DNA of 54,826 nucleotides, taken from Acidobacteriota bacterium. Lineage in GTDB: Bacteria; Acidobacteriota; Terriglobia; Versatilivoradales; Versatilivoraceae. Shown here piece by piece: positions 5,813 through 37,552 of the stretch (the first letter of the stretch is position 1; each line of letters begins with the position of its first letter). Below the pieces are notes generated by a model, which was not told where the DNA came from, made no database searches, and saw nothing but the letters and a program-made list of their open reading frames with translations. Position numbers and translations under genes: made by a program. The stretch lies in the NCBI GenBank assembly GCA_028875575.1, contig JAPPDF010000080.1, forward strand, positions 39,114 through 93,939, in the 5' to 3' direction.

Positions 5813-5861
5813 TCTTTATCTCCTCAACTGGGCTCCCGTGAATAGGGGACGTGGCCCCCGT

Positions 5862-8800
5862 TCAATCCACCACCGTCCCGCTGCCGATGGCGGCAGCGGC
5901 TTCACCACGCAGTCTCCCTCGATCGACCAGCTCGTAGACCGCCGGAATGAAGAAAAGCGTCAACAGCGCCGAAAACAGCAATCCTCCCATGACCGCGATG
6001 GCCATGGGGGCCCGAATCTCAGCCCCCTCTCCCCAGCCGAGGGCCATGGGGATCAGCCCCAGGACTGTGGTGAGTGTGGTCATCAGGATGGGCCGAAGCC
6101 TGACCTGGCCGGCCTGCAGCAGGGAAGCCCGCCTGGCGCGTCCGGCCCGCCGGAGCTTGTTGGTGTAGTCCACCAGGAGTATGGCGTTGTTGACCATGAT
6201 CCCCGACAGGATAATCAAGCCCAGCAGCACCACAACGCTGAGCTCGGTGCCCGTCACCGCCAGGGCCAGGACCACCCCGATCAGACCCAGAGGAACCGTG
6301 AACATGATGATAAGAGGATGGAGGAAGGATTCGAACTGGGAGGCCATCACCAGGTAAACCAGAAAAACGGCCAGGGCCAGCGCCATGAGCAAGCTCCGAT
6401 AGGAGGTCTCCAGCTCCCGGTTCTGTCCGGCCAAAGACAGGCTGACCGTTGCCGGAAGCCGCCCGCCAAGGTCCTCGAGCTCGGCCTGGATCGACCGGGA
6501 GGCCCGGTTGAGATCCAAACCGCTCAGGTTGGCCGACACCACCGCCGCCCGCTGGGAACCGATACGCCTCACCTCCCCCGGCCCCCTGCCGATGTCGATG
6601 TCCGCCACCGAGTTCAAGCGAATGGGCACGGTGGCAGCGGCCTCGGAGTCCGACTCGGCGTTCTGAGCCGTTGTCCCCTCGGCGCCGGACCCGGACCCGC
6701 CGGAGGAGCCGTCACCGGAAGCCGCCCCCGAGTTCGTTTGGCCGCCTGTGCCTGAAAAGGCCCGCGTTCCCATGTTGATCACCAGTTCCCTCAGATCCTG
6801 GATGGCGTCACGGTCCGATTCGGCCGCCCGGACCAGAATGTCGATCTGCTTGTCCTCTTCGCGGTAGCGGGAGGCCACATCCCCGCGAATCTTGTTTCTC
6901 AGGATGTCGGCAATCGAATTTTCGTCCAGATTCAGGCGGGCCAGCCGCTCCCGATCGAAACGCACCTGGATCTCCGGATTCCCCATGCGGGTCGAGGTCT
7001 TGACATCCTTGAGCCCGGTAATCCCCTCCATGCGCGCGGCCACCTGGCCGGCGGCTGCCTGCAGCTCGCCCAGGTCGTAACCGTAAATCTCCACTTCGAT
7101 CGGGGTGGTGAAGCTGAACAGGGTGGGCCGCCGAAAGGCATAGGTCACCTCCGGGTATTGGCTCAGCCGGCCGCGCAGGTACTCGATGACCTCGAACTCC
7201 GCCTGCCTGTCCCGACGATCCTCCATGACCACGTGAAGCTGGCCGACGTGCTCCTCCTCGAGTTGCCGGGCGAACTGGTTCTGGTTGCTGCCCCCTGCGC
7301 TGGAGAAGACCGTTTCAACCCCCTCGAGTTCCGCCACCTGCCTTTCGACCTCACCCAGGAGTCGATCCGTCCTCGCCAGCGGCGTGCCCTCCGGCAAGCG
7401 GATTTCGAAGGCGAACTCTCCCTGGGTCATGGGCGGGATCAATTCGGCTCCCAGCCGGAACGAGGCTGCTATGGCCAGGGCGAGCAGCAGCCCGGTTGCC
7501 GCCAGTACCCTTCCCTTGTGGTCGAGCACCGACTCGAGCCAAACGGGGTAACGCCCCCTCACTACCTCCAGGACCGCCTCGAAGCCATTCAGGACCGGGG
7601 CCAGCAGGCGCAGCAGGCCTCGGCCCAGCCAATGCAGACCGGCGCGGAGGTCTGCCAGCACCACGGTCAGGAGGTCCACGAACAGAAAGGCCATCGTCCG
7701 CCGAAGGGCTTTGCGGGAAAAGGCGAGGACGCGTCCGGCGGCTCCCATGGCCCCGGGGGCGAGGGTCTTTGGCTCGGCATCCGGAAGGGCCTTGCCGGAT
7801 GCCGGAGGAGGCGGCTGGACCTGTAGCGCCAGCACCATGGGAATGAAGGTCAACGCCACCAGGAGCGAGGCCGAAAGGGAAAAGATAATGGTCAGGGCCT
7901 GGTCCTTGAACAACTGCCCCGCAATGCCCTCCACAAAGACCAGGGGCAGGAAGACGGCCAAGGTGGTGAGCGTGGACGCCGTGACCGCGGTTCCGACTTC
8001 GCGAGTCCCCCGGTAGACGGCTTCCGGCAGGGTGGTACGGGAGCGGTCCTGGCGGTGCACCGCCTCCAGAACCACGATGGAGTTGTCCACCAGCATGCCC
8101 ACCCCCAGGGCGATCCCGCCCAGCGACATGATATTCAGGGACACGTCCATCTGGTACATCAGGGCGAAGGTGGCCAGGACGGAAATGGGAATTGAGAAAG
8201 CCACCAGCAGGGTGCTTCTCAGGTGGCGCAGGAACAGGTAGAGGACCAGGGTGGCCAGCACCGCTCCCAGCACCGCCGACCAGAGCACGTTGTCCACGGC
8301 CTGCTCGATGAATCGGGCCTGATTGAAAACGGTGCGCACCTGGAGGCTGCCCGAAAGGACCCCGTCCTTGCGAAGCTTCTCCAGCTTGGCCTCCACCGCC
8401 CGGGCCACCATCACCGTATTGGCGTCGCCCTCCTTGTAGACCGCCAGCTCCACGCTCTCGCGGCCGTCGATGCGGGCAATCACCTCCCGGTCCTTGGAAC
8501 CCCGCCAGACCTCGGCGACCTCGCCCAGAACCACCCTTCTGCCGTCCGAATCCCGCAGGATGATCCGTTCGATCTCTTCCACCGAGCGAAACTGGTTCAA
8601 CATGCGAACCATGTAGTTGGCATCCAGGTCATACAGGCTTCCGGAAGCCTGGTTCAGGTTCTCCCGGGTGAGCACCTGGGTCACTTCGGTAATGGGGATC
8701 CTCAGCTCGGCCAACCGCTTCTCGTCGATTTCAATGCGAATCTGCTCCTCCAGGCCGCCCACCACCTTGATGGCCGCCACGCCTTCGGTGGACTCCAGGC

Positions 8801-33226: not shown

Positions 33227-34156
33227 CTAAGTCATAGTGTCGACAGGAGTTCCTTGTAGCGTATGACTACCCGCAACAGATTGATAGGTGCATTCGTGCT
33301 CAAGAAATTTCCGAAGTGCTTCCAAGTCAACCTTGCCTTCGTTCAGGTCTGATCCTGGGATCATAATAGATAGTTTTTCGGTTAGCTTGCCTTCACGAGA
33401 TGACGCAACAAAAGAACGAATTAAATGCTGCACAAGCTTCTCTTTCGGAGTATTAATTCGTGAGAAACCTGACCCGAGGATCGGACAAACTAGATTCTCC
33501 ATCCCCCCCCTTTCTCTTAGCTGACTCCACATGATTGGAAGAGCATCTAGCAGTTCATCTAGTGTCGATTGTGCCACGCGGTTGTTATTTAGAGACGCGA
33601 TAGAAACAAAATACGCTTTCCTATTCTTCAATATCACCGGGCAAACTGTGCCGCGTCCGTAGGAATTCCGCTTGCCGAATCTCTTACTTGTCACCGGCAA
33701 CTCAGATTGTATTGGTATATCTGTTAACGATTCGTTCAATTGAGTGTCAAGTTCCCTAACATCGTGTGCAAATCTCAGCGTAAACTGACCTTGAATACTT
33801 TTCTCAGAAATCGTGTGGTCTTCCATTGATGTGTCAAAGGTCGTATTGCTACCGATGATGAATGCCCCTTCTCTCTTGAACATATCTCCAACACGCAATT
33901 CCACAATAATATCTGTGTCTGATATGAGAGAGCTTGGAAATCTCTGTCTTGAGTTCCACCCGGCGTGTAGGCTCGTGGCCGAGGGGACTACGAACCAAGC
34001 TTGTTCTAGAATTTTCAAGAGTAGAATGTTGTCAGGAACAAGCCAAGATAACATTCTCTGCAAGCTAAGCCAGATTCCCAATCCATAGAAAATCCCACCA
34101 AAAAAGGGGCCAATGGATGGCCTTATCCACCAATAAATCGTTTTAAATGATGGCAT
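33227..34156 (-). CDS. thsA: ThsA-like effector of type II Thoeris (TM-macro protein)
   Basis: 309 residues from the ATG at 34156; a TTG at 34171 that overlaps the thsB stop (TTGA) is an equally possible start. Residues about 13-60 hold one or two hydrophobic membrane segments. The rest is the macro domain once called DUF6430: VELRVGDMFKREGAFIIGSNTTFD, SEKSIQGQF, then the conserved PILGSGFSRI and LSIMIPGSDLNEGKVDL. In type II Thoeris this macro domain binds a histidine-ADPR signal made by ThsB and triggers membrane damage and cell death upon phage infection (known from the family). It lies directly downstream of the TIR gene. AT-rich codon use marks it as acquired. Confidence 0.85.
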   Translation of the reverse strand: MPSFKTIYWWIRPSIGPFFGGIFYGLGIWLSLQRMLSWLVPDNILLLKILEQAWFVVPSATSLHAGWNSRQRFPSSLISDTDIIVELRVGDMFKREGAFIIGSNTTFDTSMEDHTISEKSIQGQFTLRFAHDVRELDTQLNESLTDIPIQSELPVTSKRFGKRNSYGRGTVCPVILKNRKAYFVSIASLNNNRVAQSTLDELLDALPIMWSQLRERGGMENLVCPILGSGFSRINTPKEKLVQHLIRSFVASSREGKLTEKLSIMIPGSDLNEGKVDLEALRKFLEHECTYQSVAGSHTLQGTPVDTMT

Positions 34157-34167
34157 GTTAAAAGCTT

Positions 34168-34671
34168 TCAAAGATTGAGCTCTTGGTAAACAGAGTCTGT
34201 GTAGTAATACGCATCAGATTCTCCACGCTTCTTGAGTTCTCGATGCCTGTGAGGCCAGTCCTGTAGGGCATACTGGAGAATCTTAGAATTGAAACTAATG
34301 TGTATTGCGAGTTGGTCTCGAATTACTGGTGGACAACGATCTTTGTCAAGAGATCGTTTTTTATTTAGATTCACCCCAATGATAGGTAGTCCAAGCACTA
34401 CCGCCTGTTCCAACTCCCACCTTACGAACTTATATAAGTACCTAGTCTGCGATCCGATTAGCGACACGACTATCTTTGAGTTTAGTAGCCGTACCCTTAG
34501 TCGTCTCTTTATTGTTTGTTCACTACTTGTGTCACGGGCAACGTTTAAGTCGTGAGCATCATGAAAATTAAAACTCGAATAGTCGCTTTGCTTCCACGCT
34601 TTCATTAGCCGGTAGTAGCGAATGTCGTTATCTCCGTCAAACGACACAAAGATTTTATTGCGATAGGCCAT
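34168..34671 (-). CDS. thsB: ThsB TIR-domain protein of type II Thoeris
   Basis: 167 residues; GGAG lies 8 bases before the ATG at 34671. It is a TIR-like fold (ThsB/MTH538 type): NKIFVSFDGDNDIRYYRLMK at the N-terminus, SSFNFHDAHD, SKIVVSLIGSQTRYLYKFV, then RWELEQAVVLGLPIIGV. Glu86 after Trp85 matches the catalytic Glu position of ThsB proteins, which consume NAD+ to make a nucleotide signal when phage is sensed. The next gene encodes the TM-macro receptor/effector, and the two frames touch, so this is one operon. The neighbouring IS relic lies upstream. Confidence 0.87.
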   Translation of the reverse strand: MAYRNKIFVSFDGDNDIRYYRLMKAWKQSDYSSFNFHDAHDLNVARDTSSEQTIKRRLRVRLLNSKIVVSLIGSQTRYLYKFVRWELEQAVVLGLPIIGVNLNKKRSLDKDRCPPVIRDQLAIHISFNSKILQYALQDWPHRHRELKKRGESDAYYYTDSVYQELNL

Positions 34672-35118: not shown

Positions 35119-36030
35119 ATGCCTATACTGACTGCATACTTGGACGAGAGCGGACACGTAAGGGATCCAAAACTAAATTTTGTGGGAATGGCTGGGTTTG
35201 TTGCACCTGCTGCCAATTGGGACACTCTCGCGCCGGAGTGGCACAATATTTTAGTGAAAGCTGGCTTTCAGGAACCGTTTCACATGAGCGAATTTGCCCA
35301 CTCCAGAGGGCAATTCACTAGGTTTAGGCGCAATGAATCTGAGAGGCGGAGATTCTTCGGAAAATTGCTGGGTGCTATTAAGCGTAGCCGGGCAACACCA
35401 ATAGGAGCAATCATCTCGCTCAACGCTTACGACGCGTTGACCCGATCGCAAAAGGACTCATTTGTAGACCCTTACTATGTTGTGTTTCAGATTTGCACAC
35501 GTTATGCGGCGCTGAAGACTGACCCAGGTGAATGCGTAGACATGGTTTACAGCCGCCATGCCCAATTCGGCACAGTTAACAGTTCAGCGCGGAGGGACAA
35601 AATACCTGGAAGGGGAAGAAAACTGTGGTACGCGATGAAATCTGACCCACGATACGCATCCCGCTTGAGGAGATTTTCCGCAGCATCGCCCAAGGATCAT
35701 GCGGAATTGCAGGCCGCCGACCTTTTTGCATACGAACTTGTCCATGAGTTTGAGAATCGGATCGCGCGACCTAAGGACGCCATGCGCCACGGGTTGCGCC
35801 AGATCCTGAGCATGCAGGCTATTCCAGCGCCGAACATTGACCTGTTGGATAGGAAAGAGCTTCTTTACCTCGTCAAACGCAGTGGCTTTCCAGACCAGAC
35901 TGGAGTCGCAGAGGTCGACGAGATGGTGAGGCTATCGGCAAAGCAGGCAATGGTGAAGTGGATGCAAGAACGCGGCGGTGTTTCTAGTGGGATGCACGTA
36001 GTGTGGGATGAGCCGTCGTTCCTGAAATGA
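35119..36030 (+). CDS. DUF3800 domain-containing protein
   Basis: 303 residues. The N-terminus LTAYLDESGHVRD carries the DE motif (Asp9, Glu10) and AELQAADLFAYE in the second half carries the conserved Asp, the pattern of DUF3800, predicted to be an RNase H-like fold. The biochemical role is unknown. Such genes are scattered in accessory and defence regions. It lies between the IS relic and the convergent GIY-YIG/DGQHR pair. Its base composition is intermediate, GC-richer than the Thoeris genes, so it may have arrived separately. Confidence 0.85.
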   Translation: MPILTAYLDESGHVRDPKLNFVGMAGFVAPAANWDTLAPEWHNILVKAGFQEPFHMSEFAHSRGQFTRFRRNESERRRFFGKLLGAIKRSRATPIGAIISLNAYDALTRSQKDSFVDPYYVVFQICTRYAALKTDPGECVDMVYSRHAQFGTVNSSARRDKIPGRGRKLWYAMKSDPRYASRLRRFSAASPKDHAELQAADLFAYELVHEFENRIARPKDAMRHGLRQILSMQAIPAPNIDLLDRKELLYLVKRSGFPDQTGVAEVDEMVRLSAKQAMVKWMQERGGVSSGMHVVWDEPSFLK

Positions 36031-36092: not shown

Positions 36093-36431
36093 TCAAACTG
36101 AGATTGGCGAGCAGATCCTATTTAATATCGGGCGGTTACCATCTACTAATTCGCATTCATGTTGCCATGTTCTCTCCACTTTCTGAAACTCATCGCATTG
36201 GAGCCAATAAAAGAAAAATGCCCTGCCCTTCTCTGTCAATGAACGCTTCCCTGGATCATCTAAGTGGTCTCCAAAACGCCTCCGCAGATTTCTGGTGAGC
36301 CCTACATAGAGAACAACACCCTCGAACGACACGAGCGCGTAGCACCCAGACTTCGCAGGAATGAAACGCTGCCGATCACGCCGGAAGTTTTCTCGGTGCT
36401 CAGGAAAGGGCTTGAGAAGTGAGACTTTCAC
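36093..36431 (-). CDS. GIY-YIG nuclease-fold protein
   Basis: 112 residues. The motif halves are GCY at about 29-31 and YVG at 42-44, followed by an Arg (about 52) and His56 in RRRFGDHL. Glu92 and Asn104 in HECELVDGNRPILN match the expected metal-binding Glu and conserved Asn. It is a stand-alone single-domain nuclease candidate. The ATG overlaps the stop of the upstream DGQHR gene by four bases (ATGA), which argues for a joint function. No DNA-binding domain is visible. Its role is unknown. Confidence 0.8.
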   Translation of the reverse strand: MKVSLLKPFPEHRENFRRDRQRFIPAKSGCYALVSFEGVVLYVGLTRNLRRRFGDHLDDPGKRSLTEKGRAFFFYWLQCDEFQKVERTWQHECELVDGNRPILNRICSPISV

Positions 36432-37552
36432 AACTCGATCTCACCAGACATAGCTGGTTTGTGGAGCGCCTTAGCCATTTGTTGAGCAACGTGTGCTATC
36501 GCAGCTGCGTTTAATCCACTTGCCTTTCCACCTCTGGCCCACCATTCCGAATGCCCGACACCCGCATATTCACCCTCAACATTATCAAAACAAGCTGAGA
36601 GTAAATCTTTCATTGCTTGGACCGTGAATTTGCTGTCGTTCTGAAGCTTTGTGAAAAATGGAATTGAAAACCGAGAAAATAGCTCCACGCCGTTGTATCT
36701 GTACAAAACCGACGCATTACCGTCATCGACAAGGTCAGCAATGGCCTTCCAATAATTTAGAAAAATCCTCTTTTCCTTATTGAAATCGTTTAGGACAGCT
36801 ATCGGATTATTTGCGGTCAATACGTATTTGACAATCGCCTTTACCATGGACCGCTGGTTTATCATATTGGCACTTGGATCATTTGCCATCCTTATCTTCC
36901 CACACCATGGGGAATTCGGTTCTTCATTCAGAAAGTCTGCAAGTCGAACGGCCTTCTCGACCTCGCCTCTTTCCACAACATTGAGAATCCATTTAGGAAG
37001 ACTTGGAATATCTTCTACATCCAAGGCTTCGGTCAATCGCGCCACGATCCGTTGTTCTACTGCCTTATCGACACTTTTTTGGGTCGTATTGACGATTAGA
37101 AAATGGCACATTTGATGGAGTTTGGGTAAATTTACAGCGATATTTACTGGGACTACGAATTCGCGCACCCTATGGTCTTTCTTCGCAGCCACCTTCAGAC
37201 CCTCCAAGCGATGTTGTCCGTCAACGACACTAAAAGGTCCTATGGTGGCCGTATCGAAATTGATGGTGTTTGTTGAGGCGTCGAAATCTAGAGGCTTGTC
37301 GGTCGCCAACAACACTGATGTAGGCAGGAATGCATCTTGATCATCCTGGCCCTTTACGATGTAGTCGGCCAGTTTTCTGGCCCGTGCTCGGTTCAATAGT
37401 CGCTGGTATCCAGAGTCACCTGCAGCACTGGGATCCAAGGTCTCGACAGAATAAAAAGAATCCTGAGTTAAGACTTTGACCTTTATCGCTGTCGCGAACA
37501 AGGTCAACTCACCTTGCTGCACCTTTGCCACTGGAAGTTTGAGTATTGCCAT
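36428..37552 (-). CDS. DGQHR domain-containing protein (DndB/ParB-like superfamily)
   Basis: 374 residues. DGQHR is at 111-115 within GPFSVVDGQHRLEGL, and the surrounding strands and NTTQKSVDKAVEQRI resemble DndB-type proteins. DndB is a regulator of phosphorothioation gene sets and DpdB acts in 7-deazaguanine modification, but no dndACDE, dpdA or queuosine-type genes are present here. The gene is therefore a stand-alone member paired with a GIY-YIG protein through an ATGA overlap. The two could act as a restriction-like or nucleotide-hydrolysing defence unit; this is inference. The composition is AT-richer than the core genome. Confidence 0.82.
   Translation of the reverse strand: MAILKLPVAKVQQGELTLFATAIKVKVLTQDSFYSVETLDPSAAGDSGYQRLLNRARARKLADYIVKGQDDQDAFLPTSVLLATDKPLDFDASTNTINFDTATIGPFSVVDGQHRLEGLKVAAKKDHRVREFVVPVNIAVNLPKLHQMCHFLIVNTTQKSVDKAVEQRIVARLTEALDVEDIPSLPKWILNVVERGEVEKAVRLADFLNEEPNSPWCGKIRMANDPSANMINQRSMVKAIVKYVLTANNPIAVLNDFNKEKRIFLNYWKAIADLVDDGNASVLYRYNGVELFSRFSIPFFTKLQNDSKFTVQAMKDLLSACFDNVEGEYAGVGHSEWWARGGKASGLNAAAIAHVAQQMAKALHKPAMSGEIEL

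Follow-up and report, generated by a model that had tools for sequence, protein, structure and literature searches.

A mobile two-gene module pairing a DGQHR protein with a minimal GIY-YIG nuclease, a candidate NTP-gated nuclease outside the Dnd and Dpd systems

Introduction

SspE, BrxU and DndI are nucleases in which a DUF262 NTPase domain gates an HNH nuclease domain (PMC13251355, PMC10952713, PMC11662687). In SspE, DNA sensing is followed by NTP hydrolysis through the arginine of the DGQQR motif, after which the HNH domain is licensed (PMC13251355). In both SspE and DndI the NTPase domain senses DNA and licenses the nuclease within a single polypeptide, and both require phosphorothioate modification genes. 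The type IV restriction systems GmrSD and BrxU (DUF262 + DUF1524) need no modification partner of their own, reside in defence islands and are also known in a two-gene form. GIY-YIG nucleases likewise act as defence effectors in CMoRE (PD-T4-3) and SNIPE (PMC12923530, PMC13190303), each a single protein: CMoRE carries a fused sensing domain, SNIPE a transmembrane segment and DUF4041, and an NTPase partner has been described for neither. DndB and DpdB, finally, belong to the DGQHR superfamily.

Here we describe a pair of overlapping genes, encoding a DGQHR protein and a short GIY-YIG nuclease, in a 54,826-nucleotide stretch of an Acidobacteriota genome (the window). Like GmrSD and BrxU, the pair appears to couple a ParB/sulfiredoxin-like NTPase with a DGQ-x-R motif to a nuclease. 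It differs from them in that the nuclease is GIY-YIG rather than DUF1524 HNH, the NTPase is of the DGQHR/DndB type rather than DUF262, and the two are encoded, in all copies observed, by separate neighbouring genes. Unlike SspE and DndI, the pair has no phosphorothioate modification genes; unlike CMoRE and SNIPE, its nuclease has no fused sensing or membrane domain. It shares a superfamily with DndB and DpdB, yet it is equivalent to neither, lacks dnd and dpd genes and has an obligate nuclease partner instead.

The initial annotation knew of no characterised system with just these two parts, and our searches agree. No description of a DGQHR/DndB-like and GIY-YIG pair was found in the open-licence literature, in a search that also covered DUF5655. 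PADLOC-DB 2.0.0 contains no family for the GIY-YIG protein; none of its models covers this nuclease or the two genes together, and the DGQHR protein matches only DpdB and DndB there, both weakly. The parts are of known kinds, and their combination appears to be new.

Results

The locus lies in a low-GC island beside Thoeris

Both genes were confirmed from the open reading frame list and domain profile searches, with family scores above the cut-offs. The DGQHR gene occupies positions 36428-37552 (minus strand, 374 aa) and the GIY-YIG gene positions 36093-36431 (minus strand, 112 aa). The start and stop overlap at 36428-36431 (minus strand) has the four-base length first reported, but its sequence is GTGA, with a GTG start, rather than ATGA.

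The neighbouring Thoeris genes recognised in the initial annotation are indeed present in the same island. ThsA, with a macro domain, lies at 33227-34171 (minus strand), and the TIR-like ThsB gene, which overlaps it, at 34168-34671 (minus strand). A DUF3800 gene (35119-36030, plus strand) sits between Thoeris and the pair; it runs on the strand opposite to the pair and is not common to other pair loci. Together, the pair, Thoeris and DUF3800 form an island of about 4.5 kb with 46-49% GC, against about 64% in the surrounding DNA. Nothing convincing was found in a search for att-like repeats or a tRNA at the island, and a promoter and terminator scan gave counts close to the shuffled mean.

Host rpoB is 66% identical to that of a Pyrinomonadaceae genome and 70% identical to that of a genome of its own class, compared with 48-54% for genomes of other phyla, placing the host closest to Acidobacteriota. 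The DGQHR protein of the window, by contrast, is nested among alphaproteobacterial copies in the tree, the nearest of which is 82% identical, and this discordance implies transfer between phyla.

The DGQHR protein has a predicted ParB/sulfiredoxin fold

The 374-residue protein is a member of the DGQHR/DndB superfamily by its sequence scores, with 113 bits against TIGR03187 (cut-off 58.85) and 48.9 bits against PF14072 DndB (cut-off 29.1). Its scores against the family members of established pathways are far lower: 19.8 against the DndB equivalog TIGR03233 (cut-off 328), 52.3 against the DpdB equivalog NF041060 (cut-off 300), and a value far below the cut-off for DGQHR_dnd_1. A match to an established pathway was therefore not obtained, and the sub-threshold DndB and DpdB matches cover the N-terminal part of the protein. 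Three motifs are invariant in all 28 aligned members, namely Q50 and R51 of the QR motif (37400-37405, minus strand), DGQHR itself at residues 111-115 (37208-37222, minus strand) and the FxxxN motif from F151 to N155 (37088-37102, minus strand).

Structure models were built from genome rows only, without plasmid rows. The DGQHR model is of moderate quality (pLDDT 74.5, pTM 0.50) and predicts an NTPase-like core of the ParB/sulfiredoxin fold at approximately residues 9-160, followed by a helical C-terminal half. The best fold matches of residues 9-160 are Noc, PadC, ParB and sulfiredoxin, with Z scores of 5-7.7, and the top-ranking rows belong almost entirely to one superfamily. SspE (Z 4.9), BrxU (Z 4.5) and DndI (Z 3.5) come next. 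As every Z score is below 8, the ParB/sulfiredoxin NTPase fold is a prediction; it agrees with the literature, in which DGQHR is regarded as ParB/Srx-like (PMC4619093). The window protein gave no match to DUF262/GmrSD_N (PF03235) at E<=0.1, and searching PDB sequences with a profile of the DGQHR proteins gave chance hits only.

The partner is a bare GIY-YIG domain with an intact active site

The 112-residue protein scores 30.3 bits against PF01541 GIY-YIG (cut-off 22.6), and complete copies that were measured span 112-114 aa, the length of a bare catalytic domain. The model is confident (pLDDT 90.5), and its top matches in the PDB include the nuclease domain of UvrC (E 1e-4, probability 1.00). 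The 'GIY' element is GCY, with Y31 (36339-36347, minus strand), and the 'YIG' element is YVG, with Y42 (36300-36308, minus strand); the former is invariant, as are the Y and G of the latter. R52 (36276-36278, minus strand), the predicted catalytic arginine, corresponds to UvrC R39 in a hand alignment and is invariant in paired copies. E86 (36174-36176, minus strand) is the predicted metal ligand of the site and N104 (36120-36122, minus strand) a predicted active-site asparagine, and both are likewise invariant. Y31, Y42, R52, E86 and N104 are thus all retained across the 27 aligned nucleases. By score, fold and these five residues, the protein is a member of the GIY-YIG nuclease superfamily and, judged on their invariant motifs, both proteins of the pair look active.

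Three orphan copies of the nuclease gene occur on Rhizobium etli and R. phaseoli plasmids (L027, L028 and L029, at about 5836-6267), with no DGQHR relative within 12 kb. All three carry R52G, and a frameshift or truncation further disrupts two of them.

The pair is a conserved two-gene unit

We collected 34 intact pairs, comprising the window, five plasmid records, 22 further pairs with a complete DGQHR gene from a single scan of 84,980 species genomes, three viral contigs and three pairs from whole-genome searches. Two partial loci at contig ends (L054 and L059) and a decayed fragment (L055) were left out, and the nuclease of L042 is cut by a contig end. The GIY-YIG gene lies directly downstream of the DGQHR gene in every pair, and the four-base overlap is exact in 31; the exceptions have gaps of two bases (L052) or ten bases (L057 and L058). 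A junction that recurs in 34 pairs, 31 of them with an equal overlap, is more than chance.

The carriers belong to Pseudomonadota, Acidobacteriota, Bacteroidota, Elusimicrobiota, Spirochaetota, Thermodesulfobacteriota and Myxococcota, and include rhizobial megaplasmids and IMG/VR contigs; a Methanoperedens bin also has the pair, on a short contig. Among viral contigs, an alignment search found four relatives, one cut off by a contig end, and a search with a single protein found none. Named phages yielded a single match, at 25.5%, in a Pf phage. The family is rare and sharply bounded: among 397 genomes from the order to which L034 belongs, and 395 from the class that includes L044, scores drop from about 700 bits for members to below 70 for the proteins ranked next. 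When 398 genomes were searched with the GIY-YIG profile alone, two were returned, the seed and one new genome, in which a DGQHR gene is likewise present.

The two proteins diverge in parallel from pair to pair (Mantel r=0.85), with none of 10,000 permutations reaching this value. Shared ancestry contributes to the correlation, which therefore indicates co-inheritance rather than contact. An all-against-all comparison of 28 loci revealed no third conserved component. Of the three outcomes that the initial annotation had set as refuting its proposal, none was observed, and the first of them, a lack of co-conservation elsewhere, is countered by all 34 intact copies. Given this co-conservation, the lack of a Dnd or Dpd gene set outside the window and the lack of a match to an established pathway, the two-gene module is well supported.

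Dnd and Dpd partners are missing from most genomes

The initial annotation noted no DNA-modification genes of the dnd or dpd type in the window, and this absence extends to the whole host genome: the best DndC score is 19.5 bits (cut-off 290.4), DpdA gives no match and a second DndB-family protein is not found. DndC exceeds its cut-off in two of 15 pair-bearing genomes and is missing by this measure from the other 13; DpdA exceeds its cut-off in none of the 15. One of the two genomes with DndC is that of L032, in which about 24 kb separates this gene from the pair (G305 C1:802171 and C1:826084). Assignment of the pair to Dnd or Dpd was rejected on the equivalog scores and the missing partners.

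The pair is mobile, and its context favours genome conflict

On one IMG/VR contig (L056, 8001-9463) the pair is cargo of a prophage, flanked by a tape-measure gene and by tail assembly genes and on the strand opposite to the tail genes; the plasmids that carry the four rhizobial pairs were typed as conjugative. Elsewhere, HsdR and HsdM are neighbours of the pair at L034 and L048, the latter with AbiC as a further neighbour. An integrase is found near the pair at L036, L041 and L046, in L036 together with a type ISP enzyme and in L041 with an HsdM-like gene. Other pairs lie beside homoserine dehydrogenase, GDP-mannose dehydratase or molybdopterin oxidoreductase genes, and no neighbour family is common to all pair loci. 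With ordinary metabolic neighbours at several loci, clustering in defence islands is only partial.

Taken together, this context favours a role in genome conflict and falls short of proof of defence. The defence module suggested in the initial annotation stands as a two-gene unit; its defence role is suggested by fold analogy and by prophage cargo, plasmids, restriction loci and the Thoeris island.

One clade of DGQHR proteins has a variable N-terminus

In one DGQHR clade of moderate support (89/79), the reading frame extends ahead of the core. The rhizobial plasmid proteins (L022-L025) have a DUF5655 domain fused in frame upstream of the core, scoring 31.7 bits in L025 (cut-off 24) and just under the cut-off in L022. 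The extension of L038 and L039 is a different conserved domain, and that of L041 a third sequence; neither matched a family in Pfam, NCBIfam or PDB searches. A third-codon-position excess in the L038/L039 and rhizobial extensions indicates that they are coding, with weaker evidence for the L041 extension, which was seen once. Such lineage-specific additions at the N-terminus are what a swappable sensor would be expected to show.

Other DGQHR-related loci

Two putative viral contigs, L057 (11388-14564, minus strand) and L058, encode, close to the pair, a 774-residue protein that has a central DndB domain; at L057 its gene adjoins a D12-class adenine methyltransferase gene. Distant DGQHR genes at L030 (4812-6813), L031 (4665-6734), L082 (7860-9723) and L084 (2873-4706, minus strand) abut or overlap an unannotated gene for a protein of 266-302 aa; for one of these partners, a match to HEPN falls short of the threshold (E 0.027). 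These distant genes and their partners are possibly a parallel DGQHR-plus-effector family.

Discussion

We propose, with a probability of roughly 60% and largely by analogy with known NTPase-gated nucleases, that the pair is an obligate, horizontally moving, two-subunit NTP-gated nuclease, in which the ParB/Srx-fold DGQHR NTPase licenses the GIY-YIG subunit against invading DNA. The DGQHR subunit would be the sensor and gate: it would recognise some feature of invading DNA, which we infer to be the trigger, and NTP binding or hydrolysis would license the small GIY-YIG subunit, presumably in a physical complex, to nick or cut that DNA, including that of phages. The pair would then resemble a split GmrSD, SspE or DndI with a separate GIY-YIG protein in place of the DUF1524 HNH domain, and the N-terminal domain added in one clade may be the swappable part of the sensor.

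The main rival is a toxin-antitoxin or abortive infection system, in which the GIY-YIG protein is toxic, the DGQHR protein inhibits it and represses the operon, and infection releases the nuclease to cut the cell's own DNA. Bicistronic, overlapping, mobile genes found on plasmids and prophages would suit such a system, as would the inactivated orphan nucleases, which are what an unchecked toxin should leave behind; DndB would be a precedent, since, as cited in PMC10853773, it is reported to repress the dnd operon in an ATP-dependent manner. Yet the DGQHR protein is large, keeps its NTPase motifs invariant and has gained an N-terminal domain in one clade, all of which exceeds the needs of a simple antitoxin, and we consider this explanation unlikely.

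Far less probable still is a selfish element, with the GIY-YIG protein as a homing-type endonuclease that spreads both genes and the DGQHR protein supplying DNA binding. Wide horizontal spread would be expected of it, as would the variety of unrelated insertion contexts, some of them housekeeping, but the pair loci share no neighbour and so give no sign of a common insertion site, the nuclease consists of its catalytic domain and has no DNA-binding region besides, and the prophages, plasmids and integrase-bearing islands that carry the pair already explain its mobility. A DndB-like or DpdB-like accessory role in a modification system encoded elsewhere, which could draw on the common superfamily (PF14072, TIGR03187) and on the few genomes with DndC, is largely refuted by equivalog scores far below cut-off, by the window genome, which has neither DndC nor DpdA, and by the 13 of 15 genomes without DndC and 15 of 15 without DpdA above cut-off.

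Returning to the NTP-gated nuclease, a broader form of the proposal, to which we give slightly less than even odds, is that the pair may be a previously undescribed antiviral system of two components that is shared across phyla: a DGQHR NTPase of the ParB fold would gate a separate, minimal GIY-YIG nuclease with no accompanying DNA modification, and swaps of N-terminal domains would diversify the sensor. The pair is small enough for immediate cloning and assay. DGQHR/DndB-type proteins are widespread, and the pair would make a role for them outside Dnd and Dpd directly testable in two genes. If the proposal is true, GIY-YIG would join the effectors driven by ParB-fold NTPases.
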